The position numbers and the translations under genes are program-made. A stretch of 64,000 bases of DNA from contig NZ_CP014145.1 of assembly GCF_001542775.1 (NCBI RefSeq), forward strand, positions 310,001-374,000. Reading direction: 5' to 3'. Positions 3,471 through 63,665 of the stretch are shown here, in pieces (the stretch's first letter is position 1; each line of letters opens with the position of its first letter). This DNA comes from Microterricola viridarii. GTDB lineage: Bacteria > Actinomycetota > Actinomycetes > Actinomycetales > Microbacteriaceae. The notes under the pieces are model-generated. The model made no database searches, had not been told where the DNA came from, and saw only the letters and a list, made by a program, of their open reading frames with translations.

Positions 3471-4724
3471 ATGAACCGCATAACCATCGCCCTGCTCGCC
3501 GCCCTCGAAGCGGCCATCGCCGTCGCCATCGGGCTCGGCATCGCCCTCGTGCCGTTGACCATCCTCTGGGCGACCGGCAGCGGCTTGAGCACCGACTGGA
3601 CCGTGTTCTGGCGCGCCGCCTCCGACGTCTGGCTGCTCGGCCACGGTGTGAACCTCACACTCACCCTGCCCACCGCGTTCGTGAGCGTGCTGGCGCTTCC
3701 CGGCGCGGATGCCGCTTTCACGCTCTCGCTCGCGCCCCTCGGTTTCGCCCTGCTCACCATCGTGCTCGGCATCGGCGCCGGCCGCCGGGCGGGCAGCTCC
3801 CCACATCCGCTGCAGGCGGCCCTGATCGTCGTCGCAGTGTTCTGGGTATTGGCCAGCCTCGTAGCCCTGAGCGCCGGGCACCCCATCGCCACCCCCGCCG
3901 CCGGCAGCGCGCAGCTCCTGCCCGGCCTCATCTACACGGCGGCCGTCATCACCGGCCTCGCGCTCTCCCGCCGGGCCGTGCTGGGCACGGCCGGCCGGCG
4001 CCTAGCCGGCTCGGTACGCGACTGGGTGGACGAGCTGCCGCCCACCGCCGTGCGGCTGGTCGCCGAGGGGCTGCGCGGCGGAACCATCGCCGCGGCCGTG
4101 GTCGTCGCGGCCGGTGGCCTGCTGTTCTGCTTCTCGCTGCTCAGCAACTTCGCCACCGTCATCGGGCTCTACGAGTCGCTACAGGCCGGGGCGCTTGGCG
4201 GCATCGCGCTGACCCTGCTGCAACTGGCTCTGTTGCCGAACGCCGTGATCTGGTCCGCCAGTTGGGTCGTCGGCCCCGGTTTCGCCGTCGGCGTTGGCAG
4301 CAGCGTCTCGCCCGGCGCCACCGTGCTCGGGCCCGTGCCCGGCCTGCCGCTGCTCGGCGCGCTGCCCGACGGGGCGACGGGGCCGGGGTTCCTGGTGCTG
4401 TTGGTGCCGATCCTGGCCGGCTTCGCCGTCGGCATGCTGCTGCGCCAGCGGATGCCGCAGGCCAAGCCGCGCGCGCGGCTGCTGATCGGCTACGGACTCG
4501 CCGTCGGCGTGACCACCGGCGTGATCCTGGGGCTGCTGGCCTGGATCTCCGCCGGCGCGGCCGGACCCGGCCGGCTGCAGGAGCTCGGGCCCAACCCGTG
4601 GCTGGTCGCCGCGTTCGCCGCCCTCGAGGTGGCGCTGCCGGCGATGCTCGGTTTGTACGCGGGCTCCGTCGCCAAGCTCCCGATGCGACGCGGCCGCAGC
4701 ACGGTCTCCGAACCGGCCGCCTGA
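3471..4724 (+). CDS. perM: DUF6350 / PerM-like polytopic membrane protein
   Basis: A 417-residue protein made almost entirely of hydrophobic helices (eight or more). In mycobacteria the gene between sucCD and purN is PerM, a DUF6350 membrane protein linked to cell division; the same position and overall architecture lead to this call, which I infer from context rather than from a catalytic motif. A TAGGCT hexamer at 3456-3461 lies 9 nt before the ATG, so the transcript has almost no leader. The intergenic gap before purN is only 23 nt. Confidence 0.75.
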   Translation: MNRITIALLAALEAAIAVAIGLGIALVPLTILWATGSGLSTDWTVFWRAASDVWLLGHGVNLTLTLPTAFVSVLALPGADAAFTLSLAPLGFALLTIVLGIGAGRRAGSSPHPLQAALIVVAVFWVLASLVALSAGHPIATPAAGSAQLLPGLIYTAAVITGLALSRRAVLGTAGRRLAGSVRDWVDELPPTAVRLVAEGLRGGTIAAAVVVAAGGLLFCFSLLSNFATVIGLYESLQAGALGGIALTLLQLALLPNAVIWSASWVVGPGFAVGVGSSVSPGATVLGPVPGLPLLGALPDGATGPGFLVLLVPILAGFAVGMLLRQRMPQAKPRARLLIGYGLAVGVTTGVILGLLAWISAGAAGPGRLQELGPNPWLVAAFAALEVALPAMLGLYAGSVAKLPMRRGRSTVSEPAA

Positions 4725-4735
4725 GTTCGCTGCGA

Positions 4736-4741
4736 TAGGCT
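4736..4741 (+). promoter_or_regulatory. -10 element of leaderless purN
   Basis: TAGGCT followed by exactly six bases and the GTG start of purN. No ribosome-binding site is present, consistent with leaderless transcription from the start codon. Confidence 0.55.
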
Positions 4742-4747
4742 CGACAC

Positions 4748-5341
4748 GTGCTGAAGCTCGTCGTGTTGATCTCTGGAACCGGATCGAACCTTCGGGCACT
4801 GCTCGAAGCCGCGCAGGACGATGACTTCGGCGCCCGCGTCGTCGCCATCGGCGCCGACCGCGACGCCGACGGCCTTGCCCTCGGCGAGGAATTCGGCATC
4901 CCGACCTTCACCGTGCCGTTCACGTCCTTCCCCGACCGGGCCAGCTGGGGCGACGAGCTTCTCGCGCAGGTGCAGCAGTGGCAACCGGACCTGGTGGTGC
5001 TCAGCGGCCTGATGCGCCTGGTGCCGCCGCGTTTCGTGGCCGCGCTCACGCCCAACCTGCTGAACACGCACCCCGCCTACCTGCCCGAGTTCCCCGGCGC
5101 GCACGGAGTGCGCGACGCGATCGCCGCCGGCGTCGATCAGAGTGGGGCGAGCCTGATCATCGTTGACAACAGCGTCGACGGCGGCCCCATCGTCGCGCAG
5201 GAACGCGTCAGCGTGCTGCCCGGTGACACCGAGCATGATCTGCACGAGCGCATCAAACCCGTCGAACGCCGCCTGCTGATCCAGGCTGTGCGCGACATCG
5301 CCGACGGCCACGTCAATCTCAAGGAGTTCAGCACGCAATGA
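4748..5341 (+). CDS. purN: Phosphoribosylglycinamide formyltransferase
   Basis: GAR transformylase, which uses 10-formyltetrahydrofolate to formylate glycinamide ribonucleotide in purine synthesis. The 197-residue length is typical. The N terminus carries [14 protein letters not shown], and the catalytic region reads [17 protein letters not shown] with the Asn and His of the active site, followed by VDGGPIVAQ with the conserved Asp. The start is a GTG six bases after a TAGGCT box. Its last four bases overlap purH (ATGA). Confidence 0.96.
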
Positions 5342-6942
5342 GCGGTCCCAGCCACGACCCGTCCCTCTACCGTCCGCGCGACATCGTCGCAGTGCGGCGC
5401 GCACTGCTCTCGGTGAGCGACAAGACCGACCTCCTCGAGCTGGCTGCGGCGCTGTCGGCATCCGGTGTCGAGATCGTCTCCACTGGCTCGACCGCGTCGA
5501 CGATCCGCGACGCCGGCTTTGCCGTGACGGATGTCGCCAGCGTCACCGGCTTCGCCGAGGCGCTCGACGGCCGCGTCAAGACGCTGCACCCCGCCGTGCA
5601 CGCCGGCCTGCTCGCCGACCTGCGCCTCGAGTCGCACGAGGCCCAGCTGCTCGAGCTCGGCATCGCGCCGTTCGAGCTCGTCGTCGTGAACCTCTACCCC
5701 TTCGCCGAGACGGTCGCCTCCGGTGCGCCCGCCGCCGACATCGTCGAGCAGATCGACATCGGCGGCCCCGCCATGGTGCGCGCATCGGCCAAGAACCACG
5801 CCAACGTGGCCATCGTGGTCTCGCCGACCCGCTACCCCGAGATCATTGCAGCGCTGCAGGCCGGCGGCACCACGCTGGCCGCGCGCCAGGCACTGGCCGC
5901 CGAGGCGTTCCGTCACACCGCCAGCTACGACGTCAATGTCGCCAGCTGGATCGGCACCGTCGTCGCCCCCGACGACGAGGGAACCGGCTTCCCCGGCTGG
6001 GTCGGCGCCACCTGGACCCGCCAGCAGTCGCTGCGCTACGGCGAGAACTCGCACCAGGCCGCCGCGCTTTACCGCAACCGCGAGGGCGGCGGCATCGCTC
6101 AGGCGGAGCAGCTGCACGGCAAGGAGATGTCGTACAACAACTTCGTCGACGCCGACGCGGCCGTGCGCGCCGCCTACGACTTCGCCGAGCCGGCCGTCGC
6201 CATCATCAAGCACGCCAACCCCTGCGGCATCGCCGTGGCCGCAGTCGGGGCTGTCGACCCCATCGCCTCAGCACACGAGCGGGCGCACGCCTGCGACCCC
6301 GTGTCGGCATTCGGCGGCGTCATCGCCAGCAACCGCACCGTCACCGCCGAGATGGCCCGCACCGTCAGCGGCATCTTCACGGAAGTGCTCGTCGCCCCCG
6401 GCTTCGAGCCTGAGGCGATTGAGATCCTCACCGCCAAGAAGAACATCCGCCTGCTCCAGCTGCCGGCCGACTACCGCCCCACGGCCACCGAGATCCGCCA
6501 GATCACCGGTGGACTGCTGATGCAGCAGGCCGACTCCTTCACCGACTTCAGCTCGGCCGGGTGGACGCTCGCCGCCGGCACCGAGGTTGACCCGGCGACC
6601 CGCGCCGACCTCGAGTTCGCCTGGCGGGCCTGCCGCGCGGTCAAATCCAACGGCATCCTCCTCGCCTCCGGCGGAGCCTCCGTCGGCGTCGGCATGGGCC
6701 AGGTCAACCGCGTCGACTCCTGCCACCTGGCGGTGAACCGGGCCGGCGAGCGCGCCGCCGGTTCGGTCGCGGCATCCGACGCCTTCTTCCCCTTCGCCGA
6801 CGGCCTGCAGGTGCTGCTCGACGCCGGCGTCACGGCCGTCGTGCAGCCCGGTGGCTCGGTGCGCGATGAGGAGGTCATTGCCGCCGCGAACGCCGCCGGC
6901 GTGACCATGTACTTCACCGGGGAACGCCACTTCTTCCACTAG
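5338..6942 (+). CDS. purH: Bifunctional AICAR formyltransferase / IMP cyclohydrolase
   Basis: The enzyme of the last two steps of IMP synthesis, 534 residues. The N-terminal MGS-like cyclohydrolase domain (about 1-190) has the phosphate-loop residues STGSTAST and GRVKTLHP; the C-terminal transformylase domain contains the Lys-His pair in IIKHANPCG. It is translationally coupled to purN through an ATGA overlap, giving a purNH operon. A long hairpin follows the stop codon. Confidence 0.98.
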
Positions 6943-6956
6943 AAGTCACACCCCGA

Positions 6957-6997
6957 AGACGACCGGATGCCGCAACAGTGGCATCCGGTCGTCTCTG
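6957..6997 (+). terminator. Terminator after purH built from an inverted GGATGCC pair
   Basis: Perfect 14-bp arms GACGACCGGATGCC (6958-6971) and GGCATCCGGTCGTC (6980-6993) around an 8-nt loop, followed by TCTGTGT. The arms contain the window-wide repeated motif CGGATGCC in both orientations. Confidence 0.85.
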
Positions 6998-7016
6998 TGT
7001 GGGGTCGCTGTCGCGG

Positions 7017-7022
7017 TAGTCT
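7017..7022 (+). promoter_or_regulatory. -10 element of the leaderless dimethylargininase gene
   Basis: TAGTCT ends six bases before the ATG at 7029 and no ribosome-binding site is seen, so the mRNA probably starts at the initiation codon. Confidence 0.55.
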
Positions 7023-7028
7023 CGCTGC

Positions 7029-8327
7029 ATGACTTCTTCGGATGCCGCCGCCGCCGACACCCCTGCCCCGCCCACTGTGAACCCCATCCCGCCGGCCCGA
7101 CCCGTGCGCCGCCCGGAGCGGCCGCGCAGTACCTCGGCCTCCGTGCTTTCGGCCCTCACCGTGGCACTCGGCGCCTACCTCGTGACCGTGCTCGGCTACT
7201 TCATCAGCAGTGGCCAGCAGAGCCAGGCGATCAGCCAATTCGGCGGATTCTTCGCACTGCCCGCCTTGATCGCCTTCGTGCTGCTGGCTGTGTTCAACCT
7301 GCTCGGTGCCACGCGCGCCTGGCTGCCCGCCCTCGCCGGCGGACTCGGCGCCGGCATCGTCGGGGCTCTGCTCGGCTCGGCTGTCCTGCTCTCGGCCTCC
7401 ACCGGCAACATCTTCGCCTCCGATGTCGTCGTCTACCTGTTCGGCAGCCTGGTCGGCTTCAACCTGCTGTTCGTGCTCTCCGTCGCCATCCTCTCTGCCC
7501 TGCTCGGGCCGCGCGTGTACGACTCTGTCATGGGGTTCCGCACCATTGGGCGTCGCACGGGGGAGCGCCACGTGGCGCTCGTGCGCATCCCGGCGTCCAA
7601 CCTCGCCGACGGTGAGCTGACACACATCGACCGCATCCCGGTCAACATCGAGCTTGCCGACCAGCAGTGGGACAACTACTGCGCCGCCCTGGACGCGGAG
7701 GGCTGGGAGACGATCGAAGTTCCGGCCGCACCCGAGATGGCCGATTCGGTGTTCATCGAGGACGCCGTCGTCATGTTCGGCGAGCTGGCCGTGATCACCA
7801 ACCCGGGCGCCGAGTCGCGCAGCGGCGAGATCGTCGGCGCCGAGCAGGCCGTGCGCGAGCTCGGTGGGCTGATGATCCAGCGCATCAGCGCCCCCGGCAC
7901 CCTCGACGGTGGTGACGTGCTGAAGATCGGCATGACCGTCTACGTCGGCCGCTCCCTGCGCACGAACGCGGAGGGCATCCGCCAGCTGCGCGTCATGCTG
8001 GCCCCGCACGGCTACACGGTCGTCGCGGTGCCGCTCAGCAAGGCGCTGCACCTGAAGAGCTCCGTCACCGCGCTGCCGGACGGCACCGTGATCGGCTGGG
8101 CTCCCGTCGTCGACCACCCCGAGCTCTTCGACCGCTTCCTGGCGATGCCGGAGGAGTCCGGCGCGGCCGTCGTCGTGCTCAGCCCGGACACCGTGCTGAT
8201 GGCGGCATCCGCCCCGCAGAGCGCCGCCCTCATCGCCGACCTCGGCTACCGGGTCGTCACCGTCGACATCTCGGAGTTCGAGAAGCTGGAGGGCTGCGTC
8301 ACCTGCCTCAGCGTGCGCGTGCGCTGA
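7029..8327 (+). CDS. Membrane-anchored dimethylargininase (N-terminal transmembrane domain fused to DDAH)
   Basis: A 432-residue two-part protein. Residues about 1-40 are Ala/Pro-rich, about 40-160 hold four hydrophobic helices, and about 165-432 form an amidinotransferase-fold domain of the NG,NG-dimethylarginine dimethylaminohydrolase type. This enzyme class hydrolyses methylated arginines to citrulline. The catalytic His is visible in KALHLKSSVTAL (about residue 340) and the nucleophilic Cys in the C-terminal LEGCVTCLSVRVR (second Cys, about 426). Known bacterial DDAHs are soluble and about 250-290 residues, so the membrane domain is an addition. The start has no Shine-Dalgarno site and looks leaderless. 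Confidence 0.85.
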   Translation: MTSSDAAAADTPAPPTVNPIPPARPVRRPERPRSTSASVLSALTVALGAYLVTVLGYFISSGQQSQAISQFGGFFALPALIAFVLLAVFNLLGATRAWLPALAGGLGAGIVGALLGSAVLLSASTGNIFASDVVVYLFGSLVGFNLLFVLSVAILSALLGPRVYDSVMGFRTIGRRTGERHVALVRIPASNLADGELTHIDRIPVNIELADQQWDNYCAALDAEGWETIEVPAAPEMADSVFIEDAVVMFGELAVITNPGAESRSGEIVGAEQAVRELGGLMIQRISAPGTLDGGDVLKIGMTVYVGRSLRTNAEGIRQLRVMLAPHGYTVVAVPLSKALHLKSSVTALPDGTVIGWAPVVDHPELFDRFLAMPEESGAAVVVLSPDTVLMAASAPQSAALIADLGYRVVTVDISEFEKLEGCVTCLSVRVR

Positions 8328-8347
8328 GCCGCCCCTGTTCTGACCCC

Positions 8348-8380
8348 AGCCCGCGCGGACCTTCGGCCCGCGCGGGCTTG
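8348..8380 (+). terminator. Terminator after the dimethylargininase gene
   Basis: Arms AGCCCGCGCGG (8348-8358) and CCGCGCGGGCT (8368-8378) are perfectly complementary and are followed by TGTCTGTG. Confidence 0.75.
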
Positions 8381-8455
8381 TCTGTGTGCCCAGCCCTTGA
8401 TTCGGCCGACACCCACCCCACCTGGCAGCCCGCAACAATCGGTGCCGAAAAGCCC

Positions 8456-8485
8456 TTGCGCCCACGCTGGCCCGCCCCATATTCT
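8456..8485 (+). promoter_or_regulatory. Promoter of the ABC exporter operon
   Basis: TTGCGC (8456-8461) and TATTCT (8480-8485) are separated by 18 bp. Transcription from about 8492 would give a leader of roughly 335 nt before the first exporter gene, which includes a small ORF with a strong ribosome-binding site. Confidence 0.5.
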
Positions 8486-8562
8486 GTAAGGCTGTGCGCA
8501 GCGCCGGTTCGGATGACGCGTGCGCAGCACCGGATGACACAACGACGCGCCAGGAGGATGCA

Positions 8563-8664: not shown

Positions 8665-8723
8665 GCGACGCCGCACAGGCACCGCCCAGCAGCCCGCCCT
8701 CGCGCGAGCTACCGCTCTTCACA

Positions 8724-8743
8724 CGGAGACCACGTCGTCTCCG
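8724..8743 (+). other. Leader hairpin before the ABC exporter
   Basis: CGGAGAC (8724-8730) and GTCTCCG (8737-8743) form a perfect 7-bp stem with a 6-nt loop between the leader-peptide stop and the exporter start. A further short palindrome, GTCCGGCCGGAC, follows near 8760. No T-tract follows, so it is at most one arm of an attenuation or translation-control structure. Confidence 0.35.
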
Positions 8744-39692: not shown

Positions 39693-41246
39693 CTAGCGCC
39701 GGCTCAGTTCGGGGGAGCGGTGGTAGCGGACGCCGAGGGCGTCGAGCCGCTCCACGAACGCGGCGAGGCGGGGCGAGAACTCCGCGAAGCTGCGCGTGGC
39801 GGCATCCGGGGCAGCGCCAGGGACGCCTGCCGGGGCGGGCGACCAGGCGATCTCGGCGATCGGAGCCAGCCGGGGGAACACCATGAACTCGACGTCGTCG
39901 ATGCCGTCGAGCGTCTCCGTCCAGACCGGGGCCTCCACGCCGAGGATGGCGGCCTCGTCGAGGCCGGTCACGATGGCGGTCGGCTCCCAGGAGTACGCCT
40001 CCTCGACCGAGGTGGGCCCGTCGGCCCAGAGCTGGCCGAGCCGGTCGGTGTCTGGGTAGTGCATGTCGAGGTAGCTGACGTCGGACGGCGACATGATGAC
40101 CTGGCCGCCCTGCTCGACGAAGCTCAACGTGTGCGGTGCGGCATCGGCCCGCGGGGTGACGAAGTCCCAGTACTGCCCGATGGTTCCGGGCGCCAGCTCG
40201 CGCGACTGCCCCATCTCGTGCCACCCGATCACGGTCTTGCCCGAGGCCGCCCCGATCTCGCTGGCTCGGGACACGAACGCAGAGAACTCCGCACTGCTGA
40301 GCTGCAGCGACTCGTCGCCGCCGAGGTGGATGTACGGGCCGGGCGTGATCTCGGCGAGCTCGCGCACGACGTCCTCGACGAAGCGCCAGGTGGCGTCCGC
40401 TGTGGTGTCGACGGTGCTGAATCCCACCTCGACGCCGCGGTAGGGCTCGGTGGCGACGCCACCGATGTTGAGCTCCGGGTAGCTGGCCAGCGCGGCATTG
40501 GTGTGCCCGGGCAGGTCGATCTCCGGCACGAGCGTGATGAAGCGGCTGGCCGCGTAGTCGACGATCTCGGTGTAGTCGGCCTTCGTGTAGAAACCGCCGC
40601 CACCCAGCACCGACGTCGAGGCACCGATCTCGGTCAGTCGAGGCCAGCTGTCGATCTGCAGCCGCCAGCCTTGGTCGTCGGTCAGGTGCAGGTGCAGCAC
40701 GTTGAGCTTCAGCAGGGCGATGTCGTCGATGTAGCGCTTGACCGCGGCCACGCTGAAGACGTTGCGGGCGACGTCGAGCATGGCGCCCCGGTAGGCGAAG
40801 CGGGGCGCGTCCTCGATCTGGACGGCCGGCGTGGTCCATTCCACGTCGTCGGACACGCGGGTGGAGCCGTCGAGGGCGGCCTCGATCCGGGCCGGGAAGA
40901 GCTGGCGCAGCGTCTGCACGCCGGAGAAGAGCCCCTCGGCGCTCGCCGCGGTCACGGTGATGCCGTCGGCGTCGGCGTGCAGCGAGTAGCCGGGCGCCGC
41001 GGAGTCGTCGATGACGAGGCGGATGCCGGGGGCCGCGGCATCCGCGCCCAGCGGATTCACGGCCAGCTCGAAGCCGGTGCGCGGGCGCAGCAGCTCGCCG
41101 AGGTACTCGCCGACGGCCGCAGCAGCGGAGAGCTGCTCGGCGGAGTCGCCGGTCGCGGAGATGGAGCTCTGCGCCCCCAGGGTGAAACCGTCGCCGGGGA
41201 GTTCGGTCACCGAGGCGGGTGCTGGCACGATCGCGATGTTGGGCAT
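39693..41246 (-). CDS. Beta-N-acetylhexosaminidase, GH20
   Basis: A 517-residue GH20 enzyme. Residues about 1-130 form the small alpha/beta domain; the barrel follows with LNVLHLHLTDDQGWRLQID, VPEIDLPGHT and the catalytic Asp-Glu pair in IHLGGDESL. There is no signal peptide, so it acts in the cytoplasm on imported beta-linked GlcNAc or GalNAc oligosaccharides. AAGGA precedes the ATG. Together with the GH3 enzyme at 23.3 kb it gives the cell two intracellular hexosaminidases, one near each importer. Confidence 0.95.
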   Translation of the reverse strand: MPNIAIVPAPASVTELPGDGFTLGAQSSISATGDSAEQLSAAAAVGEYLGELLRPRTGFELAVNPLGADAAAPGIRLVIDDSAAPGYSLHADADGITVTAASAEGLFSGVQTLRQLFPARIEAALDGSTRVSDDVEWTTPAVQIEDAPRFAYRGAMLDVARNVFSVAAVKRYIDDIALLKLNVLHLHLTDDQGWRLQIDSWPRLTEIGASTSVLGGGGFYTKADYTEIVDYAASRFITLVPEIDLPGHTNAALASYPELNIGGVATEPYRGVEVGFSTVDTTADATWRFVEDVVRELAEITPGPYIHLGGDESLQLSSAEFSAFVSRASEIGAASGKTVIGWHEMGQSRELAPGTIGQYWDFVTPRADAAPHTLSFVEQGGQVIMSPSDVSYLDMHYPDTDRLGQLWADGPTSVEEAYSWEPTAIVTGLDEAAILGVEAPVWTETLDGIDDVEFMVFPRLAPIAEIAWSPAPAGVPGAAPDAATRSFAEFSPRLAAFVERLDALGVRYHRSPELSRR

Positions 41247-43710: not shown

Positions 43711-43765
43711 ACCGGATGCCGCGTGCGCCGGCCCCTGAAGGGGCGGCTGCACGCGGCATCCGTCG
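43711..43765. terminator. Bidirectional terminator built from an inverted CGGATGCCG pair
   Basis: CGGATGCCGCGTGC (43713-43726) pairs perfectly with GCACGCGGCATCCG (43749-43762); an inner GCCCCTGAAGGGGC hairpin completes the structure. It lies between the convergent folD and small membrane-protein genes and contains the window-wide 9-mer in both orientations. Confidence 0.85.
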
Positions 43766-44551: not shown

Positions 44552-44718
44552 GATGGCTGGCGGGGGCTGCTGCCCGCCTAGTCGACCGGCGTGGGATGGC
44601 TGGAGGGGCTGCTGCCCGCCTAGTCGACCGGCGTGGGATGGCTGGAGGGGCTGCTGCCCGCCTAGTCGACCGGCGTGGGATGGCTGGAGGGGCTGCTGCC
44701 CGCCTAGTCGACCGGCGT
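44552..44718. repeat. 42-bp tandem array regenerated from the arsC/carbonic-anhydrase gene junction
   Basis: The string TAGTCGACCGG recurs at 44578, 44620, 44662 and 44704 with a period of 42 bp, after a first occurrence at the arsC stop (44424). Every unit contains CTGCTGCCCGCCTAG, the end of arsC, fused to CTAGTCGACCGGCGTGG, the end of the opposite gene. The units are otherwise identical apart from the first. Confidence 0.9.
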
Positions 44719-45240
44719 GGTGTGCAGTTCGACGTGGCGCAGGTAGTTCACGGCGTTGTTGCGGATGCCGGCGCGCTCGGCATCCGTCAGCGCGCGCCGC
44801 ACCTTCGCCGGCACCCCGGCGACAAGCGATCCCGGCGGCACGACCGTGCCCTCGAGCACCACGGCCCCGGCCGCCACGAGCGAGCCGGCACCGATGACCG
44901 CGCCGTTCAGCACCGTCGCCGACATGCCGATCAGACTGCCGTCCTCGACGGTGCAGCCGTGCAGCACGGCCCCGTGCCCGACCGACACGTCGCGGCCGAT
45001 GGTGAGCGGGTAGCCGGCGTCCACATGGCAGGAGACGTTGTCCTGCAGGTTGGAGCCAACGCCGAGGGTGATCGGCTCCTGCTCGGCCCGCAGCACGGCG
45101 TTGTACCAGACGCTCGAATCCTCGGCGAGGGTGATCTGCCCGACGAGCACGGCGCCGGCGGCCACGAAGGCCGATTCGGCGATTTCGGGGGCCGGAAGGC
45201 CATGGAGCGGAAGCACGCGCGCGAACGGATCGATGTTCAT
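44704..45240 (-). CDS. Gamma-carbonic-anhydrase-like left-handed beta-helix protein
   Basis: A 178-residue hexapeptide-repeat protein of the PaaY/gamma-carbonic-anhydrase family. Metal-binding His candidates are in NVSCHVDAG and SVGHGAVLHG, with SVWYNAVLRAEQEPITLG before them. The family hydrates CO2 or acts as thioesterase/acyltransferase; which applies here is open. ATG 45240 follows a minus-strand TATGCT by six bases. The last codons lie inside a 42-bp tandem array, and the stop overlaps the array version of the arsC stop. Confidence 0.85.
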   Translation of the reverse strand: MNIDPFARVLPLHGLPAPEIAESAFVAAGAVLVGQITLAEDSSVWYNAVLRAEQEPITLGVGSNLQDNVSCHVDAGYPLTIGRDVSVGHGAVLHGCTVEDGSLIGMSATVLNGAVIGAGSLVAAGAVVLEGTVVPPGSLVAGVPAKVRRALTDAERAGIRNNAVNYLRHVELHTTPVD

Positions 45241-53119: not shown

Positions 53120-53162
53120 CGGATGCCGCATACAACCCTAAGTCAGTTGCCTGCGGCATCCG
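53120..53162 (-). terminator. Hairpin from an inverted CGGATGCCGCA pair
   Basis: CGGATGCCGCA (53120-53130) and TGCGGCATCCG (53152-53162) are perfect 11-bp inverted repeats with a 21-nt loop, placed between the MFS gene and the ABC gene, both on the minus strand. Confidence 0.6.
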
Positions 53163-53184: not shown

Positions 53185-54543
53185 CTAGGCGTCGATGTCG
53201 TTGTCCTTCGTCTCCTTCGAGACGATCAGGGCGATGAGGGTGAGCACGGCCATCGCGGCCAGGTAGATGCCGACCCAGAACGGGCTGCCGTCGCCGGCGC
53301 TCCAGAGGGCGACGGCGATGAACGGGGCGACGGCCGCACCGAGGATCGACGACACGTTGTAGCTGATGCCGGAGCCGGTGTAGCGCACGTTCGTCGGGAA
53401 CAGCTCGGGCAGCAGCGCGCCCATCGGGCCGAAGGTGAGGCCCATCAGCGAGAAGCCGATGATCAGCCAGGCCATGACGCCGACGAAGCCGGCACCGAGC
53501 AGCGGCACCCAGAGCAGGCCGAACACGATGATGCCGAGCGTCACCCAGATCAGCGTCTTGCGCCGCCCCCATCGGTCGGCCAGCACGCCCGAGACCAGAG
53601 TGAAGACACCGAAGAAGAGCACGCCGCCGATGAGCATGAGCACGAACGTCGTGTAGGAGTAGCCGAGGCCCGGCAGCACGGCGGCGTCGGTGGGCGACTG
53701 CGGAGCGCGGCCGTAGCTGAGCGAGAACGTCGTCATCAGGTAGAACAGCACGTAGGTGGCGAGCATGAAGAAGGTGCCGAGGATCAGCTTGCGCCAGTGC
53801 ATCTTGAAGACGGTGACGAGCGGAGTCTTCGTGAGCTTGCCGGTGGCGGATGCCGTCGAGAACGCGGTGCTCTCGACGAGTCGCAGGCGCACCCACAGGC
53901 CGACAATGACCATGACCACCGAGAACAGGAACGGGATGCGCCAGCCCCACTCGAGGAACGCCTGTGAGGGCATCGAGGGGTCATCGGAGGGGAGCACTGC
54001 GGCGATGATCAGGAACAGGCCGTTCGCGATGATGAAGCCGATCGGGGCGCCCAGCTGCGGGAAGGTGCCGTACCAGGCGCGCTTGCCCTTCGGGGCGTTC
54101 TCGGTGGCGACGAGCGCGGCACCGGACCATTCGCCGCCGAGCGCGAAGCCCTGCGCGATGCGGAGGACGACGAGCAGCAACGGGGCAAGCCAGCCGACCA
54201 TGGCGTAGGTGGGCAGCACGCCGATCAGGAATGTCGCGATGCCCATGGTGAGCAGTGCGCCGACCAGGGTGGCCTTGCGGCCGTGCCTGTCGCCGAGGTG
54301 GCCGAACAGGATCGCGCCGAGCGGACGGGCGACCATGGCGGCGCCGAAGACCGCGAAGGACTGCAGCAGGGCCGTGGTGGGGTCACCGGTGGGGAAGAAG
54401 AGGTGGGGGAAGACGAGGACGGCTGCGGTCGCGTAGACGTAGAAGTCGTAGAACTCGATCGTCGTGCCGATGAGGCTGGCCAGGATGACCCGGCTGCGTG
54501 GATTTGCGGGTGCGGCCGTGGCGACCGCGGGTGATGCTGACAT
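53185..54543 (-). CDS. MFS transporter, metabolite:H+ symporter (MHS) family
   Basis: A 452-residue twelve-helix transporter of the shikimate/proline-betaine type: TTIEFYDFYVYATAAVLVF in helix 1, GHLGDRHGRKATLVGAL, RIAQGFALGGEWSGAALVA and a large loop with STAFSTASATGKLTKTP. ATG 54543 was preferred to an upstream in-frame GTG at 54570 for lack of a better ribosome-binding site; GGAG lies 12 nt away. Substrate, probably an organic acid or zwitterion, is not determinable. Confidence 0.88.
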   Translation of the reverse strand: MSASPAVATAAPANPRSRVILASLIGTTIEFYDFYVYATAAVLVFPHLFFPTGDPTTALLQSFAVFGAAMVARPLGAILFGHLGDRHGRKATLVGALLTMGIATFLIGVLPTYAMVGWLAPLLLVVLRIAQGFALGGEWSGAALVATENAPKGKRAWYGTFPQLGAPIGFIIANGLFLIIAAVLPSDDPSMPSQAFLEWGWRIPFLFSVVMVIVGLWVRLRLVESTAFSTASATGKLTKTPLVTVFKMHWRKLILGTFFMLATYVLFYLMTTFSLSYGRAPQSPTDAAVLPGLGYSYTTFVLMLIGGVLFFGVFTLVSGVLADRWGRRKTLIWVTLGIIVFGLLWVPLLGAGFVGVMAWLIIGFSLMGLTFGPMGALLPELFPTNVRYTGSGISYNVSSILGAAVAPFIAVALWSAGDGSPFWVGIYLAAMAVLTLIALIVSKETKDNDIDA

Positions 54544-57827: not shown

Positions 57828-57828
57828 C

Positions 57829-58854
57829 TCAGTGTCCTTTCACGGGTCGGGCAACGACGAGAAGGTCGTCACCAAGTTGTTCGACGCTGGCCAGCTCAAG
57901 GCGCAGCGCCTCGTCGATGGAGGCGATGCCGAGTTCGCCGAGCGCGAGTTTCGGGCCGCCGAGCAGCAGCGGGGCGAGATAGACGAGCAGCTCATCGACC
58001 AGACCGGCGGCGATGAACGCACTGGCCAGGGTCGGGCCGCCCTCGACGAAGAGCGAGCGGATGCCGCGGCCGTGCAGCTCGGCCAGCTGGGCGGGCAGGT
58101 CGCGGCCGTCGGCGAAGAGAGGCGCGTGCGGGTGGCGGCGGAGCGCGGCATCCGCCGGCGTCTGGCGGCTGCCGAACACGACGGGGATGGGCTGACTGGG
58201 CAGCAGGCCGCCGGCGGCGTCGCGGGCGGTGAGAGAGGGGTCGTCGGCGAGCACGGTTCCGGTTCCGACGGCGATCGCGTCGGCGGCCGCGCGGCGGCGG
58301 TGCACGTCGAGACGGGCAGCGGGCCCGGTGATCCACTGGCTGCTGCCGTCGGCCGCGGCGGCGCGGCCGTCGAGACTGGACGCCCACTTGACGGTGACCA
58401 GCGGGCGGCCGAGGCGGGCAGCGGGCAGCCAGTCGCCGAGAACTGCCTCGCCCTCGGAGCGCAGCAGCCCGCCCTCGACGTCGATGCCGGCGGCGCGGAG
58501 TCGGGCGGCTCCGCCAGAGGACGCCTCGCCCGGGTCGTCGACGGAGTAGACGACGCGGCCGATGCCGGCCTCGATCAGCGCCTCGGCGCAGGGGCCGGTG
58601 CGGCCGTGGTGGTTGCAGGGTTCCAAGGTGACCACGGCGGTCGCACCGCGGGCTGCCCCGGGGGCGAGCTGAGAGAGGGCGTCAACCTCGGCGTGCGGGG
58701 TGCCTGCACCGCGGTGCCAGCCCTCGGCCAGAACGGTGCCGTCGGCGGCAAGCAGCACGCACCCGACCTGCGGGTTCGCCCCGCGGGCAGGGCCGTTGGC
58801 GGCGAGCACGAAGGCGCGGCGCAGAGCGTCCTCGATGTGTGCACTCGGTCCCAT
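57829..58854 (-). CDS. ribD: Diaminohydroxyphosphoribosylaminopyrimidine deaminase / reductase
   Basis: A 341-residue bifunctional enzyme. The deaminase part has the zinc motifs TPHAEVDAL and LEPCNHHGRTGPCAEALI; the reductase part has VTVKWASSLDGRAAAADG and LFVEGGPTLASAF. It performs the second and third steps from GTP. ATG 58854 is preferred because AAGGA is correctly spaced upstream; a longer in-frame ORF would run into the riboswitch. First gene of the rib operon. Confidence 0.96.
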   Translation of the reverse strand: MGPSAHIEDALRRAFVLAANGPARGANPQVGCVLLAADGTVLAEGWHRGAGTPHAEVDALSQLAPGAARGATAVVTLEPCNHHGRTGPCAEALIEAGIGRVVYSVDDPGEASSGGAARLRAAGIDVEGGLLRSEGEAVLGDWLPAARLGRPLVTVKWASSLDGRAAAADGSSQWITGPAARLDVHRRRAAADAIAVGTGTVLADDPSLTARDAAGGLLPSQPIPVVFGSRQTPADAALRRHPHAPLFADGRDLPAQLAELHGRGIRSLFVEGGPTLASAFIAAGLVDELLVYLAPLLLGGPKLALGELGIASIDEALRLELASVEQLGDDLLVVARPVKGH

Positions 58855-58957
58855 GGCAGTCCTTGTTGTCAGGTACTCCGGGGGTCGCGAGCGTGCTCGA
58901 GGTTCGCCGATCGCCGAGCGAACAGGGATTCCCTGAACACCACAAACAATCGACGCG

Positions 58958-59087
58958 TGCATCCTCCCATCCGGACTTTAACCGTCGGTGCCGGAATTTC
59001 ACCGGCTCAACCGTCTCTTCCTTGCGGAGGACACGGCTCGCGGACTTTCACCGCCGGTTCGGATTCTCACCGACCCCGGAGCACGTT
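58958..59087 (-). ncRNA. FMN riboswitch (RFN element) of the rib operon
   Basis: On the minus strand the conserved RFN blocks appear in order: GTGCTCCGGGGTCGGTGAGA and ATCCGAACCGGCGG, GTGAAAGTCCGCGAGCC, then GACGGTTGAGCCGGTGAAAT and TCCGGCACCGACGGTTAAAG, and finally GTCCGGATGGGAGGATGC. It binds FMN and shuts down riboflavin genes. About 100 nt separate it from ribD; there GTTCGC and GCGAAC can form a hairpin that may belong to the expression platform. Confidence 0.95.
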
Positions 59088-59156
59088 TCTTGCTTCTGAG
59101 TCTAGGCCAACGCACCCGGCCGGGATCTATTCCCGTCACCTCCGGCACCGTGCGGG

Positions 59157-59762
59157 GGAGGGTCGTCTTTCTGTTCCCCGTTGGCTCGAGGGAGCGTCAG
59201 CGACCGAAGCCGGCAGCGCGGCGGATGCCGGGCGGCTGTGCCGGGTCGGCTCCGGGGCTTCGGGGGCTGCGCTGCTCCTTCGTCGCGGCGCGGCCCCTCG
59301 AGCCAGCGGGGGAGAGGCGTCTGGTGCACCTCCCGTTAGCTCGGGGGGAGGGCCGTCTTCCTGTTCCTCGTTGGCTCGAGGGAGCGTCAGCGACCGAAGC
59401 CGACAGCGCGGCGGATGCCGGGCGGCTGTGCCGGGTCGGCTCCGGGGCTTCGGGGGCTGCGCTGCTCCTTCATCGCGGCGCGGCCCCCTCGAGCCAGCGG
59501 GGGAGAGGCGTCTGGGCACCTCCCCGTTGGCTCGAGGGAGCGCCGTCTTTCTGTTCCCCGTTGGCTCGAGGGAGCGCCAGCGACCGAAGCCGACGGCGCG
59601 GCGGATGCCGGGCAGCTGTGCCGGGTTGGCTCCGGGGCTTCGGGGGCTGCGCTGCTCCTTCGTCGCGGCGCGGCCCCCTCGAGCCAGCGGGGGAGAGGAG
59701 GAGCCTGGGCACCTGCCTCCCCGTTGGCTCGAGGGAGCGCCAGCGACCGAAGCCGACGGCGC
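59157..59762. repeat. 190-bp tandem repeats (three copies plus a fragment)
   Basis: The string TTGGCTCGAGGGAGCG occurs at 59181, 59371, 59561 and 59724, so two full periods of 190 bp and a shorter one of 163 bp. Each full copy is bounded by inverted arms GTTGGCTCGAGGG and CCCTCGAGCCA, with about 100 bp of conserved interior including GCGACCGAAGCC and the motif CGGATGCCG. The last copy is cut after about 40 bp next to the SorC gene. Copies differ at a few percent of positions. The array starts about 70 bp behind the FMN riboswitch; no convincing gene is seen in it. Confidence 0.9.
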
Positions 59763-59764
59763 CC

Positions 59765-60733
59765 TTACTCGAGCAGGGCGCGGGCCGTCGACTCGTCGGT
59801 GATGAGGTCGGTCACGAGCTCGGCGCGGAGCGCGCCGCGCAGGCTCGGCAGCTTGGAGAGGCCGGCCACGACGCAGACGCGGCGGGGCGTCGCCCGCAGC
59901 ACGTCGAAGCTCGGCCCGGTGCTGCGCTCATTCAGGGCGATGCCGTTGGTCGACCCGTCGGCGCGGTAGAACACCGTCGCCACGTCGCCGATGGCGCCGT
60001 CGCGGCTGAGCGACTGGAAGTCCTCCGGCTCGAGGTACCCGCCGGCGTAAACGTGGCTCGGCACCTCGGCGAAGGGCGAGCCGATGCCGAAGAGGGCGAC
60101 GTCCATGTTCGCCTGCATCTGCAGCACGCGCTCGGTCGAGCGCTCCCGCCACATCGCGTTCTTCGTGGCCGGGTCGTCGAAGAAGGCCGGAACGGGGAAC
60201 TGCTGCACGTGCGCGCCATAGGCGTCACCGAAGCGGCGCAGGATCTCGGAGGCGTAGAGGATGCCGGTGGTGCGCATGTTGCCGGCGCCGTTCAGCTGCA
60301 CGATCTGGGAGTTGTGGGTCTGCTTGGGGATGAGGTGCCGGCTGAGCGCGCCCATCGTCGAACCCCAGGCGATGCCGAGCGACATGTTGGAGTCGAAGAA
60401 TTGGCCGAGAATTCGTGCAGCCGAGAGCGCCACGCGCTCCAGTCGGTCGACGTCGCTGGCATTCTCCGGCACGGGCACGACGTGCGCGCGTACCCCGTGC
60501 TGTTCCAGGATGGCCTCCTCGATCCGGCCCGGCATGTCACGCGGCGAGCGGATCTGGATGTCGACGAGCCCGCTGGCCCTGGCGTGGCTGAGCAGCCGGG
60601 AGACCGAGGAACGCGAGGTGTGCAGTTCGTGGGCGATGGCATCCATCGTGAGGTCCTGCATGTAGTAGAGGTGTGCGGCGCGCAGGGCGTCGCCTGTCCT
60701 GCCACCCTCGGATGTCGTGTCGAGCTCGCTCAT
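59765..60733 (-). CDS. SorC/DeoR-type sugar-binding transcriptional regulator of glycerol genes
   Basis: A 322-residue SorC-family regulator: N-terminal HTH (AHLYYMQDLTMDAIAHELHT, SRSSVSRLLSHARASGLVDI) and a large phosphosugar-sensing domain (GIAWGSTM, LNGAGNMRTTG, DVALFGIGSP). It is divergent from glpD, and palindromes matching each other lie in front of glpD and glpF, so it probably controls glycerol use in response to a phosphorylated intermediate. ATG 60733 has AGGA 9 nt upstream; longer in-frame codons overlap the operator. Confidence 0.88.
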   Translation of the reverse strand: MSELDTTSEGGRTGDALRAAHLYYMQDLTMDAIAHELHTSRSSVSRLLSHARASGLVDIQIRSPRDMPGRIEEAILEQHGVRAHVVPVPENASDVDRLERVALSAARILGQFFDSNMSLGIAWGSTMGALSRHLIPKQTHNSQIVQLNGAGNMRTTGILYASEILRRFGDAYGAHVQQFPVPAFFDDPATKNAMWRERSTERVLQMQANMDVALFGIGSPFAEVPSHVYAGGYLEPEDFQSLSRDGAIGDVATVFYRADGSTNGIALNERSTGPSFDVLRATPRRVCVVAGLSKLPSLRGALRAELVTDLITDESTARALLE

Positions 60734-60763
60734 GACCGGTTCCTGCTCTCCCTGCACAAGTGC

Positions 60764-60777
60764 TGCACATATGTGCA
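60764..60777. promoter_or_regulatory. Operator palindrome TGCACATATGTGCA
   Basis: A perfect 14-bp palindrome in the gap between the divergent SorC-type gene and glpD. A 12-of-14 match (TGCACGGATGTGCA) lies at 62704-62717 before glpF. Likely binding sites of the SorC-type regulator. Confidence 0.6.
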
Positions 60778-60793
60778 TGGGCTTTGAAAGATT

Positions 60794-60826
60794 GTGCGTA
60801 TGTGTTCAAGATGTATTCATACACAC
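60794..60826. promoter_or_regulatory. Second dyad and promoter region of glpD
   Basis: GTGCGTATG and CATACACAC are imperfect inverted repeats centred near 60810. TTGTGC (60792-60797) with TATTCA (60814-60819), or TTGAAA (60784-60789) with CAAGAT (60807-60812), could be the glpD promoter lying inside this dyad. Confidence 0.4.
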
Positions 60827-60911
60827 GCGGTGGCGAAGATGCAAACAGCGGTGTTCCCTGAACCTGAGGAACGACGACGAGCAGACGCTGGTCGGGAAGC
60901 GAGAGAACGAG

Positions 60912-62648
60912 ATGTCGGCAAACGAGAACAACGGCACCCGCGAAACCGTCGCAGCGCTGCAGCAGAAGACCCACAGCAGCGTGCTCATCATCGGTGCGGG
61001 CATCAACGGCATCGCCACGTTCCGCGACCTCGCCCTGCAGGGCATCGACGTCACTCTGGTCGAGCGCGGCGACTTCGTCTCCGGAGCATCCAGCGCCTCC
61101 TCGCACATGATTCACGGCGGCGTGCGCTACCTCGAGAACGGCGAGTTCCGTTTGGTCAAGGAGTCTGTCGAGGAGCGCAACAGCCTCATCAAGATCGCCC
61201 CGCACTACGTCAAGCCGCTGAAGACCACGGTGCCGATCTTCTCCACCTTCTCCGGCATCCTCTCCGCGCCGCTGCGCTTCCTGACGCACCGTTCCGGCAA
61301 GCCCACCGAGCGTGGCGCGCTGCTGATCAAGGTCGGCATGACGCTGTACGACTCCTTCTCGCGCGACGGCGGCAGCGTGCCCCGCCACGAGTTCCGCGGC
61401 CGCACGGAGTCGCTGCGCCAGCTGCCGGCGCTGAACCCCGCGCTCAAGTACACGGCCACCTACTACGACGCCTCGATGCACGACCCGGAGCGCCTCGCCC
61501 TCGACGTGCTGCACGACGGCCTCGCCGCCGGCCCGCACGCCCGTGCCGTCAACTACGTGGAGGCTGTCGGCCTCGACGCGGGTGGCGTCAAGCTGCGCGA
61601 CACCGTCACCGGCGAGGAGTTCGGCATGAGCGCCGACGTCATCGTCAACACCACCGGCCCCTGGACCGACCTCACCAACAATGCGCTCGGCCGCCCCAGC
61701 ACGTTCATGGGCGGCACCAAGGGTTCGCACATCGTGCTCGACAACCCGGAGCTGCTGGCGGCCACCGACGGCCGCGAGATCTTCTTCGAGCACGAGGACG
61801 GCCGCATCGTGCTGATCTACCCGCTCAAGGGCCGGGTCCTGGTCGGAACCACCGACCTCGAGCACGACATGACCAAGCCGATCCGCTGCACCGAGGACGA
61901 GGTCGACTACTTCTTCGAACTCATCGCGCACGTTTTCCCAAGCATCCCCGTCGACCGCGACGACATCGTGTTCCGCTTCTCCGGAGTGCGCCCGCTGCCC
62001 CGCCACGACGACGAGGCACCCGGCTTCGTCTCCCGCGACTACCGCATCGAGAAGAGCGAGATCAACGAGCTGCCCGGCAGCACTCTGCTCAGCCTGGTCG
62101 GCGGCAAGTGGACCACGTTCCGCGCCCTCGCCGAGCACCTGAGCAACGACATCCTGGGCCTCATCGGCAAGCCGCGCACCCAGAGCACCGAGGGCCTGGC
62201 CATCGGCGGCGGCAAGGGCTTCCCGCAGACGGATGACGCACGCCAGGTGTGGCTCGCCACCTACGGCGAGGAGCTCGGCCGTGAGCGTGCCGCCCAGCTG
62301 CTCGCCCGCTACGGCACCCGCGCAGAGCCGCTGATCGCCGAACTGACCGCCGATGGGTCGACCCCGGACGCCCCGCTCGTCGGAGCCGAGGACTACTCGC
62401 GCCGCGAGATCGCCTACATCGTGGCGACAGAGCAGCCCGTGCACCTGCAGGACGTCGTGCTGCGCCGCACCAGCCTGGCCTTCGTCGGCGCGCTGAGCAC
62501 CGGCCTCCTCGAGGAGCTCGCCGGGATCATGGCCGGCGTGCTCGGCTGGAGCGAGACCCGCACGAGCGTCGAGATCGCCTCGACCCGCGCGGAGCTGGCC
62601 GAGGTGCACGGTGTGCAGCTCGAGTCCACGCAGCTGGCCAACGCCTAG
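60912..62648 (+). CDS. glpD: Glycerol-3-phosphate dehydrogenase (FAD-dependent)
   Basis: A 578-residue flavoprotein that oxidises glycerol 3-phosphate to DHAP at the membrane. FAD site VLIIGAGINGIATFRDLA and VERGDFVSGASSASSHMIHG at the N terminus, GGVRYLENGEFRLVKE, and SLVGGKWTTFRALAEH later; the C-terminal domain has YIVATEQPVHLQDVVLRRT. ATG 60912 is chosen as the first Met after the operator region, with a weak purine-rich site upstream. It heads the glycerol genes. Confidence 0.96.
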   Translation: MSANENNGTRETVAALQQKTHSSVLIIGAGINGIATFRDLALQGIDVTLVERGDFVSGASSASSHMIHGGVRYLENGEFRLVKESVEERNSLIKIAPHYVKPLKTTVPIFSTFSGILSAPLRFLTHRSGKPTERGALLIKVGMTLYDSFSRDGGSVPRHEFRGRTESLRQLPALNPALKYTATYYDASMHDPERLALDVLHDGLAAGPHARAVNYVEAVGLDAGGVKLRDTVTGEEFGMSADVIVNTTGPWTDLTNNALGRPSTFMGGTKGSHIVLDNPELLAATDGREIFFEHEDGRIVLIYPLKGRVLVGTTDLEHDMTKPIRCTEDEVDYFFELIAHVFPSIPVDRDDIVFRFSGVRPLPRHDDEAPGFVSRDYRIEKSEINELPGSTLLSLVGGKWTTFRALAEHLSNDILGLIGKPRTQSTEGLAIGGGKGFPQTDDARQVWLATYGEELGRERAAQLLARYGTRAEPLIAELTADGSTPDAPLVGAEDYSRREIAYIVATEQPVHLQDVVLRRTSLAFVGALSTGLLEELAGIMAGVLGWSETRTSVEIASTRAELAEVHGVQLESTQLANA

Positions 62649-62667
62649 CGGCTCAGAACGGGGAGAT

Positions 62668-62717
62668 GACGCCGGGGACACCGGCGTCTGAACGTTCCGA
62701 GAATGCACGGATGTGCA
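62668..62717 (+). promoter_or_regulatory. glpD hairpin and operator before glpF
   Basis: GACGCCGG (62668-62675) and CCGGCGTC (62681-62688) form an 8-bp hairpin after glpD. Downstream, TGCACGGATGTGCA (62704-62717) resembles the perfect palindrome before glpD. A TACGGT box at 62752-62757 may be the glpF -10. The rest of the 190-bp gap shows nothing further. Confidence 0.5.
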
Positions 62718-62838
62718 CGCGAAACGACTCTTTTGCCCTGTGAGTGCCGGATACGGTTCTAAGCGGATTCCTCGAATCCGCCACAGTTCGCCCGGATCTC
62801 ACCGGCGTGGATGACGAAAGAAATATCGGAAGGTCAAC

Positions 62839-63612
62839 GTGGACAACCTCGGAATTGTGTTCCTCTCTGAGCTGGTGGGAACCGCCATGCTCGTGCTGCT
62901 CGGTGGAGGCGTCGTCGCAAACGTCATCCTCGCCAAGACCAAGGGCTTCGGCGGCGGCACCCTGATGATCAACATCGGCTGGGGCCTCGCGGTCTTCGCC
63001 GGTGTCATCGTCTCGTATGCGTCAGGTGCACACCTGAACCCCGCCGTCACGCTCGGCCTCGTCGCCAGCGGAGCCCAGGACTTCGGCAACGCAGCCATGG
63101 GCACGACCGTCGCGGTGTCCGTCGTCTCGGTGCTGGCCTACATCTCCGCCCAGCTCGTCGGTGCCATCATCGGCGCCGTCGTGATGTGGCTCGGCTACAA
63201 GCAGCACTTCGATGCTGAGCCGGATGCCGCCACCAAGCTCGGCGTCTTCTCCACGGGCCCGGCCATCCGCTCCTACGGCTGGAACCTCGTCACCGAGATC
63301 ATCGGCACCTTCGTGCTCGTGTTCGTCGTCATCGGCTTCGGCCGCAACGGTGACGGCGGCGGCCTGGCCGCCCTCGGCGCCCTGCCCGTCGCCCTGCTCG
63401 TGATCGGTATCGGCGCCTCCCTCGGTGGCCCCACCGGCTACGCCATCAACCCGGCCCGTGACCTGGGCCCGCGCATCGCGCACTTCTTCCTGCCGATCAA
63501 GGGCAAGGGCGGCTCCGACTGGAGTTACTCCTGGGTGCCCGTGGTCGGCCCGATCATCGGTGGTGTGCTCGCCGGTGTCGCTTCGACCGCGCTGCTGCCG
63601 ATCCTCGGCTAG
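62839..63612 (+). CDS. glpF: Glycerol uptake facilitator (aquaglyceroporin)
   Basis: A 257-residue MIP-family channel with six helices and both NPA boxes: [13 protein letters not shown] and [13 protein letters not shown]. The Asp after the second NPAR is the hallmark of glycerol rather than water channels. GTG 62839 has GGAAGG upstream. It brings glycerol in for the kinase encoded next. Confidence 0.95.
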
Positions 63613-63665
63613 TCAGCGGCATCCGAACCCCTCACACCTCACCCGATTACAAAGGAGTTATCAGC

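Follow-up and report, generated by a model that had tools for sequence, protein, structure and literature searches.

An iterated nine-base word of Microterricola viridarii and its dialects in the Microbacteriaceae: a possible mark for DNA uptake

A word of nine bases, CGGATGCCG, recurs throughout a 64,000-nucleotide stretch of the chromosome of Microterricola viridarii (Microbacteriaceae; contig NZ_CP014145.1, positions 310,001 to 374,000 of the forward strand; hereafter the window), and the described systems closest to it are the words by which some bacteria mark their own DNA for uptake. To our knowledge such self-marking words are known from two Gram-negative families only. The DNA uptake sequences (DUS) of the Neisseriaceae are present in thousands of copies, and the uptake signal sequences (USS) of the Pasteurellaceae in over 1,000 copies, at a density as seen here and with conserved AT-rich flanks. 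Chi sites are also highly over-represented oligomers, which vary between genera and are expected to show a strong leading-strand bias. The abstract of PMC7811141 names the Neisseriaceae and the Pasteurellaceae, too, as the two families with uptake words.

As described in passages of PMC3630211 and PMC1852404, DUS are non-palindromic words of about 10 bp that lie on both strands, form head-to-head hairpins after genes and fall into lineage dialects around a short shared core, and in this they are like CGGATGCCG; the hairpins formed by uptake words are terminators (PMC1852404, in part). Here, however, the carriers are a monoderm, high-GC family whose words have GGAT (or GGA) in place of CTG as their core, no counterpart of the receptor ComP was identified and PilB-type genes are not universal among carriers. 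USS, in passages of PMC1852404, share with CGGATGCCG a length of 9 bp, the pairing of opposite-strand copies in hairpins and a shortened variant in one species, but they belong to a different phylum and the word described here has no conserved AT-rich flanks, its flanking positions carrying little information. HIP1 of cyanobacteria, according to part of PMC4390886, is likewise a short iterated word found across a group, replaced in some genomes and linked to orphan methyltransferases; it is a palindromic octamer containing GATC/CGATCG, whereas CGGATGCCG and most of the words reported below are not palindromic; some dialects contain GGATCC. Chi differs from CGGATGCCG in that the latter is non-polar, longer and paired in hairpins. 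Finally, the transformation of the actinobacterium Micrococcus luteus, described in portions of PMC8467076 and PMC6370729, involves ComEA, ComEC and Tad pili, and ComEA and ComEC are found here too, but no uptake sequence is mentioned in those portions, the terms "uptake sequence" and "sequence-specific" having 0 occurrences in PMC8467076.

Among the papers listed in searches of open-access PMC text, none describes a comparable word from this family, and in PMC12089995 CGGATGCCG stands in a probe table only. The properties of an uptake sequence that are found here are a density of about one copy every 1-2 kb, far above chance, a balance between the strands, head-to-head hairpins, dialects and the presence of competence genes. 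It would seem plausible, and we hold it with about as much belief as doubt, that the whole family bears a DUS-like self-mark, spread by biased uptake, of which CGGATGCCG is the dialect in M. viridarii.

Excess, codon choice and maintenance of the word

CGGATGCCG is the commonest 9-mer of the window with 50 exact copies, the runner-up having 33, and 100 dinucleotide-preserving shuffles of the window gave a mean of 2.94 copies and a maximum of 7:

3706..63625, 26 on the plus and 24 on the minus strand: 50 exact copies of CGGATGCCG, 40 in predicted genes and 10 intergenic
63617..63625, minus strand: last copy of the window, intergenic, directly after the predicted gene 62839-63612

A sequence-only reading of the window had listed almost forty copies where about two would be expected by chance; the shuffles give a similarly low figure and the excess is real, but the list needs mending: 38 of its 39 positions are correct, the copy given as 8213 starts ten nucleotides away, at 8203, and eleven copies were missed (4449, 9503, 11431, 13354, 24348, 24682, 27538, 30320, 31048, 38938 and 52356). 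In the genome of the window (G000), the chromosome of which is one contig of 3,689,726 bp, there are 2,299 copies, 1161 on the plus and 1138 on the minus strand, against 125 of the word read backwards as a control. A sample of 864 kb, made up of the window and 800 kb from four other places in G000, holds 534 copies where an order-3 Markov model expects 48.7, and among 9-mers CGGATGCCG has the top order-3 z, words like repetitive extragenic palindromes (REP) outscoring it at 11 and 12 bases. Many of its one-mismatch neighbours are near expectation, some variants at positions 1, 6, 7 and 9 being in 2.5 to 5.5-fold excess, and within 25 nt of the 534 copies the flanks carry at most 0.18 bit per position, which is largely codon periodicity. 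Flanks that are conserved outside the core and copied along with it, as in a REP, a miniature inverted-repeat transposable element or another mobile repeat, were not seen for CGGATGCCG.

Genes were called with a home-made gene finder, and in the 864-kb sample 445 copies lie in predicted genes, 83 are intergenic and 6 are on borders. The 445 coding copies compare with 64.2 (sd 6.5) after synonymous codon shuffling within genes and with 66.5 when the next base was also kept, by which an artefact of codon bias or of the Markov model is rejected; the excess of CGGATGCCG is no artefact of base composition or codon usage. Its sister word CGGACGCCG is depleted in genes, with 41 copies against 120 after the same shuffling and 81 when the next base is kept. 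The claim of the sequence-only reading that the word forces otherwise avoided codons was borne out, as Asp in the context CG-GAY-GCC-G is encoded by GAT in 216 of 240 cases (elsewhere in 14.4% of 13,585) and Ala in the context CG-GCN-TCC-G by GCA in 122 of 145 (elsewhere in 8.2% of 34,420). That reading had named two ways in which it might be mistaken, a higher-order Markov or codon-pair model that predicts the count and an equal abundance of sister words, and neither is what the shuffles and the enrichment of GAT and GCA in the context of the word reveal. Without the two bases CG that precede the Asp codon GAT is used in only 169 of 579 cases, so nearly the whole word matters. All six classes of frame and orientation are used by the coding copies (216, 122, 71, 21, 12 and 3), which places the signal in the DNA and not in protein or mRNA; in genes of at least 300 bp the two orientations number 239 and 205, and the copies, most of them single, are spread along the entire gene.

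The spacing of the word is near random, with 529 gaps in the 864-kb sample that have a mean of 1.6 kb and a coefficient of variation of 1.07, and counts in 5-kb windows are near Poisson (variance/mean 1.04). Its conservation was followed in the stretch orthologous to the window in three relatives, with composition-matched 9-mers as the control: sites of CGGATGCCG are exactly kept in 33 of 47 alignable cases in G129 (47.3% of matched 9-mers; Fisher p 0.002), in 20 of 32 in G063 (26.5%; p 2e-5) and in 19 of 32 in G182 (25.7%; p 6e-5). The 80 kb of the relatives contain 55, 53 and 57 copies in the respective comparisons, and the sites found only in the window or only in the relative number 14/8, 12/11 and 13/11, so that gains are near losses. 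As sites are conserved, gains lie near losses and copy numbers are similar in the relatives, we read CGGATGCCG as a word that is maintained and re-created, and not as a decaying relic.

A number of other repeats and words were observed alongside CGGATGCCG, one of them in the window:

59153..59698, no strand assigned: tandem repeat of 190 bp in 2.9 copies, carrying CGGATGCCG at 59222, 59412 and 59602

This repeat has 94% matches and lies between predicted genes, its copies of CGGATGCCG being 190 bp apart. The REP-like words CGTATCGAGACC, GACAGGCTCAAC and GACCGAAGCCAA are strongly over-represented in G000 (sample L001-L040), and TATCGAGA words are over-represented also in G045 (L176-L177). The palindrome ATGCAT is about six-fold depleted in the 864-kb sample (14 against 88.7) and is low in G106 too, which could be a pointer to a restriction or methylation target. 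A GC-poor region, L022:4400-13600, has many open reading frames without a Pfam match, ends at a tRNA and is a possible genomic island. The idea that the word is depleted in low-GC islands was dropped, as of three low-GC gaps inspected two proved to be rRNA operons and the third a run of ORFans next to a tRNA.

Distribution and dialects in the family

The word was counted in 299 genomes of the family, a draw from a larger group, among which the five genomes of the source genus have 2,299 to 2,536 copies. Other family genomes have between 1 and 3,084, the highest count being that of G142, and there are large differences within genera, for example in genus g85 (2245, 175, 1818, 2826 and 1224). 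No excess was found in 55 genomes from 19 other families of the order, where the count lies between 18 and 340 and nowhere exceeds the reversed control by more than a factor of about 2.8. The nearest named relatives by FolD are mostly Microbacteriaceae, such as Agromyces, and named loci rich in the word include those of Agromyces fucosus (13 per 21 kb), Microbacterium ulmi (14), Compostimonas (11) and Glaciibacter (7). The best single FolD match is titled Psychromicrobium silvestre; the folD loci L041, L086 and L106, from records titled Psychromicrobium silvestre, Vibrio cholerae 35D and Sporosarcina beigongshangi, look out of place for their titles, possibly through contamination or mislabelling. 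A comparison with related genera had been proposed by the sequence-only reading, and in it CGGATGCCG proves common in some relatives and gives way to another word in many of those poor in it.

Dialects exist: where CGGATGCCG is scarce, many relatives have a different enriched word, most of these words having GGAT in common. The survey covered 33 genomes besides G000, with 40 kb each for 30 of them and 120-160 kb for three. In word-rich genomes words of the CGGATGCCG type are among the most over-represented, as is GGATGCG in G020; further words, with observed against expected counts, are GGATGCCTC in G079 (20 against 0.8), AGCGGATGC in G008 (13 against 0.8), GGATGCCC in G074 (17 against 2.8), GCGGATCC in G164 (124 against 35.7), AGGATCC in G004 (38 against 8.8), GCAGGATCC in G047 (15 against 0.8), CGGATCCC in G034 (28 against 7.1, not the top word of that genome), TCCGGATC in G096 (12 against 0.3), GCGGATCG in G051 (24 against 4.2) and G121 (9 against 2.2), GGAGGCGCG in G035 (27 against 2.4) and CTGGAGGC in G031 (11 against 1.8). 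Synonymous shuffles support GGATGCCTC (20 against 0.6), GCGGATCC (109 against 22.9), GCAGGATCC (10 against 0.6), AGGATCC (34 against 4.4) and GGAGGCGCG (19 against 3.9), and leave a weaker excess for GCGGATCG in G051 (22 against 7.2), TCCGGATC (7 against 1.6) and GGATGCGG in G020 (13 against 6.0). In the samples of G016, G017, G024, G033, G042, G045, G050 and G073 there was no convincing word, and in that of G055 a weak one.

The switch can be seen between close relatives. In 160 kb of the sister species G164 there are 5 copies of CGGATGCCG (9.0 expected) beside the 124 of GCGGATCC, and its word GCGGATCCG resembles GCGGATGCCG minus one base, which may be likened to Haemophilus ducreyi, where two bases are missing from the word otherwise usual in Pasteurellaceae (PMC1852404, in part). 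Over whole genomes GGATGCCTC has 1,452 copies in G079, 1,118 in G240, 466 in G142 and 72 in G000, its reversed control not exceeding 15 in any of 22 genomes; G079 and G142 are of one genus, and have 800 and 3,084 copies of CGGATGCCG respectively. In samples of 40 kb, a single top 7- or 8-mer with GGATG or GGATC is found in 19 of the 33 genomes, and one among the top three in 23, against a background of 1.1-1.5% of 7- and 8-mers; the genomes are related to each other, so these counts are not independent events. Furthermore, among named loci of 15-21 kb (19 of 80 were under 15 kb and left out), with Microbacteriaceae assigned from record titles, the top 7-mer has GGATG or GGATC in 11 of the 22 assigned to the family and a top 7-mer of the GGAT type occurs in 0 of the 39 others. 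The top words there include GGATCCC in one Clavibacter, GGAGGC in one Rathayibacter and one Frigoribacterium, and GCGGATC in one of two Leucobacter. An apparent avoidance of GGATCC in word-rich genomes was dropped, because the excess of GGAT inflates the expectation.

Facing copies and hairpins

Copies of the word that face each other are found in the window both between and within genes:

6957..6994, plus strand: hairpin of the exact copy at 6964 and the imperfect partner TGGCATCCG, just 3' of purH (PF01808), fold z -7.6
43713..43762, no strand assigned: hairpin of exact copies at 43713 (plus) and 43754 (minus), between folD (PF02882/PF00763) and a convergent predicted gene, fold z -6.3
53120..53162, minus strand: hairpin of exact copies at 53120 (plus) and 53154 (minus), just downstream of the major facilitator superfamily (MFS) transporter gene 53185-54543 (minus; PF00083/PF07690), fold z -5.9
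41020..41044, no strand assigned: inverted pair 7 nt apart, within the GH20 family gene 39693-41246 (minus; PF00728)
44762..44786, no strand assigned: inverted pair 7 nt apart, within the predicted gene 44704-45240 (minus)

The sequence-only reading had proposed the three hairpins, and all of them fold, with energies of -42.3 (purH), -50.0 (folD) and -45.6 kcal/mol (MFS) that 0 of 200 shuffles equalled in each case; the partner at purH is imperfect, the copies at 6964 and 7039 sharing one orientation, and the gene it had assigned to the metabolite:H+ symporters is of the MFS. The pairs that it had seen inside two genes, 41020/41036 and 44762/44778, are confirmed.

Pairs of copies less than 60 nt apart are no more frequent in the 864-kb sample than at random (21 against about 19 expected). 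It is in their arrangement that they depart from chance, with 17 of the 21 lying head to head as CGGATGCCG...CGGCATCCG (p 1e-7 against one quarter), including all 8 of the 8 that lie inside a single intergenic interval. When a partner with up to two mismatches is allowed, 47 of the 83 intergenic copies have one in the hairpin arrangement and 17 of 83 in the opposite one (p 3e-6); this is a different measure from that for N. meningitidis, where, among words in intergenic regions that have a confidently called terminator, 81% fall within it (PMC1852404, in part). For G106 the counts of hairpin against opposite arrangements are 15 against 6 of 19 for GGATGCCG and 7 against 4 of 14 for CGGATGCCG. 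The check on strands and pairing proposed earlier thus found equal strands and close pairs that are mostly head to head. As for the use of the word as paired terminator arms, the pairing is significant, but no consistent U-run follows the hairpins, and it is therefore by inference that the head-to-head intergenic hairpins are taken as probable terminators.

Uptake and its rivals

The competence genes that the sequence-only reading suggested looking for are present: ComEC is found in 293 of the 299 family genomes, each of 12 word-rich genomes has ComEA and DprA, and in G000 comEA and comEC form an operon. G000 also has a type IV pilus gene cluster with PilB, PilT, PilC and pilin-like genes (L222:1149-10000). 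This cluster stands in a genome inferred to be Gram-positive.

A number of observations weigh against uptake as the origin of the word. Word-poor genomes have ComEC too, so competence genes do not predict the word, and a PilB-type ATPase (E 3e-136 or better) turned up in 15 of 20 genomes rich in the word and in 10 of 20 that are poor in it (Fisher p 0.19), being missing from the word-rich G142, G106, G258, G057 and G060, which have lower-scoring members of the ATPase family only; a PilB-type pilus is therefore unsupported as the common denominator. The top word lacks GGATG and GGATC in 14 of the 33 surveyed genomes, and all of the top three do in 10. The preference for hairpins is weak in small samples of the dialects, at 7 against 5 of 15 for GCGGATCC in G164 and 2 against 1 of 5 for GCAGGATCC in G047, and intergenic DNA is barely denser in CGGATGCCG than coding DNA (0.69 against 0.60/kb). 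Nor is there a clear depletion in foreign DNA, to judge from the part of the window unaligned to G063 (18 copies in 17.3 kb, no fewer than in the aligned part), two motif-free low-GC stretches that proved to be rRNA operons and phage Min1, a single case with 1 copy against 1.8 expected. Apart from these observations, a scan of viral contigs for paired words gave at least 120 matches against 67 for the reversed control. In M. luteus tad genes are needed for transformation (PMC8467076, in part), which means that the absence of PilB leaves uptake possible.

Methylation had been raised as an alternative and is disfavoured. A C5 methyltransferase was rejected as the cause, as just 5 of 12 word-rich genomes were found to have one and G000 was not. 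For an orphan N6/N4-type DNA methyltransferase related to M.RsrI and CcrM (L220:3237-4259), a search of 42 family genomes gave homologues in 40; in the panel the gene is present in all 20 of the word-rich genomes and in 18 of the 20 word-poor ones, whilst 10 genomes of other families gave one close match (G303) and one weak one. Its target recognition presumably takes place between the motifs DPPF and DFFAGSG, and in an alignment of 25 sequences, 24 from family genomes with at least nine different top words and the outgroup G303, this segment is nearly the same throughout, the variable part being a low-complexity insertion soon after DPPF (7 of 32 genes, those of G047, G096, G074, G009, G106, G258 and G180, were left out, so the alignment does not cover the top words of G047, G096 and G074). 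With such a distribution and a presumed recognition region so nearly invariant, which also sets it apart from HIP1, the orphan enzyme is an unlikely determinant of the dialects. That it would modify the word or its core, as for HIP1, with the word upheld by repair or other effects of methylation, is in our view improbable: the enzyme is near-universal in the family and scarce outside it, HIP1, too, gives way to different words in certain genomes (PMC4390886, in part), and G051 and G121, the two family genomes that lack the gene, have only 14 and 10 copies of CGGATGCCG, but both are enriched in a GCGGATC word, the gene is as much at home in word-poor genomes, and CGGATGCCG is not palindromic. 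It is also unlikely, though it deserves to be taken seriously, that the word is a site needed about every 1.6 kb for the binding of a protein associated with the nucleoid or active in replication, segregation or repair, with dialects arising through drift in the specificity of that protein. The near-uniform, non-polar distribution on both strands, the conserved sites and the failure of com and PilB-type genes to predict the word would all suit such a protein; an essential protein would not be expected to switch its site within a genus, as in g79 and g85, and the intergenic bias towards head-to-head hairpins would have no role.

A recombination site, the other possibility raised by the sequence-only reading, would be unlikely if polar. 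The start of G106 was read by eye from translations as dnaA-dnaN-recF-gyrB-gyrA, and in the first 140 kb beside this origin region the strands have 57 and 58 copies, without leading-strand bias; five blocks of G000, of 200 kb except for the window, have 26/24 (window), 66/68, 60/43, 50/61 and 80/56. Such balanced counts argue against polarity of the kind seen in Chi or in FtsK-orienting polar sequences (KOPS), and strand-polar sites were rejected; it is quite improbable that the word is a Chi-like site guiding a recombination enzyme of the RecBCD/AddAB/AdnAB type, for although it is over-represented, family-specific, variable between genera and often intragenic, its pairing in hairpins would be left unexplained as well. 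Very improbable is a signal for transcription termination, or another RNA-level signal, that has spread into genes. The hairpins 3' of genes are as such a signal would have them, and the intergenic density of the word peaks between convergent genes (1.11 per kb, 15 copies in 13.5 kb), is 0.72 between tandem genes and is lowest between divergent ones (0.45, 14 copies in 31.1 kb), but 445 of 534 copies are intragenic, in either orientation and along the entire gene, most of them single, and the U-run is not consistent. Hardly credible, finally, is a mutational origin, by deamination of methylated CGGACGCCG or by codon-pair preference: GAC to GAT is indeed a C-to-T change, CGGACGCCG is depleted and T5C is the most frequent single difference at changed orthologous sites, but CGGATGCCG and CGGACGCCG together number 486 in genes against about 184 expected, so that copies arose from other words too, the orthologous differences in the three comparisons fall on all nine positions, and neither kind of shuffle reproduces the count that a codon-pair preference would have to explain.

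Returning to uptake, the analogy with DUS holds for the equal strands, the use of all frames, the hairpins, the dialects with a mostly shared core and the maintenance of the word, though the PilB-type gene does not track it, and the interpretation is a lead. If it is followed, a component of the transformation machinery that binds DNA (a Tad or type IV pilin, or a partner of ComEA/ComEC) would prefer DNA that bears the word, the word-bearing DNA of relatives would be taken up and recombined more often, and copies would build up wherever the protein code tolerates them, those that face each other between genes forming hairpins 3' of genes that are probably terminators. A shift in the preference of the receptor would then shift the word and give a new dialect, which would restrict exchange to kin. 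We suggest tentatively, with rather more doubt than belief, that the mark is family-wide, with dialects (core GGAT, and GGAGG in one branch) that shift between genera and species, and that it represents uptake or kin recognition in monoderms, independent of that in Neisseria and Haemophilus and served by Tad or type IV pili and ComEA/ComEC.

If this is true, the Microbacteriaceae, a monoderm family of actinobacteria, would provide an independent case of uptake words, and the natural switches of dialect that separate sister species would allow tests of how these words originate, of what recognises them and of whether they act as a genetic barrier between species. Should uptake prove to be the wrong interpretation, a family-wide iterated word with so strong a synonymous codon bias still matters for studies of codon usage, recombination and methylation in the Microbacteriaceae.

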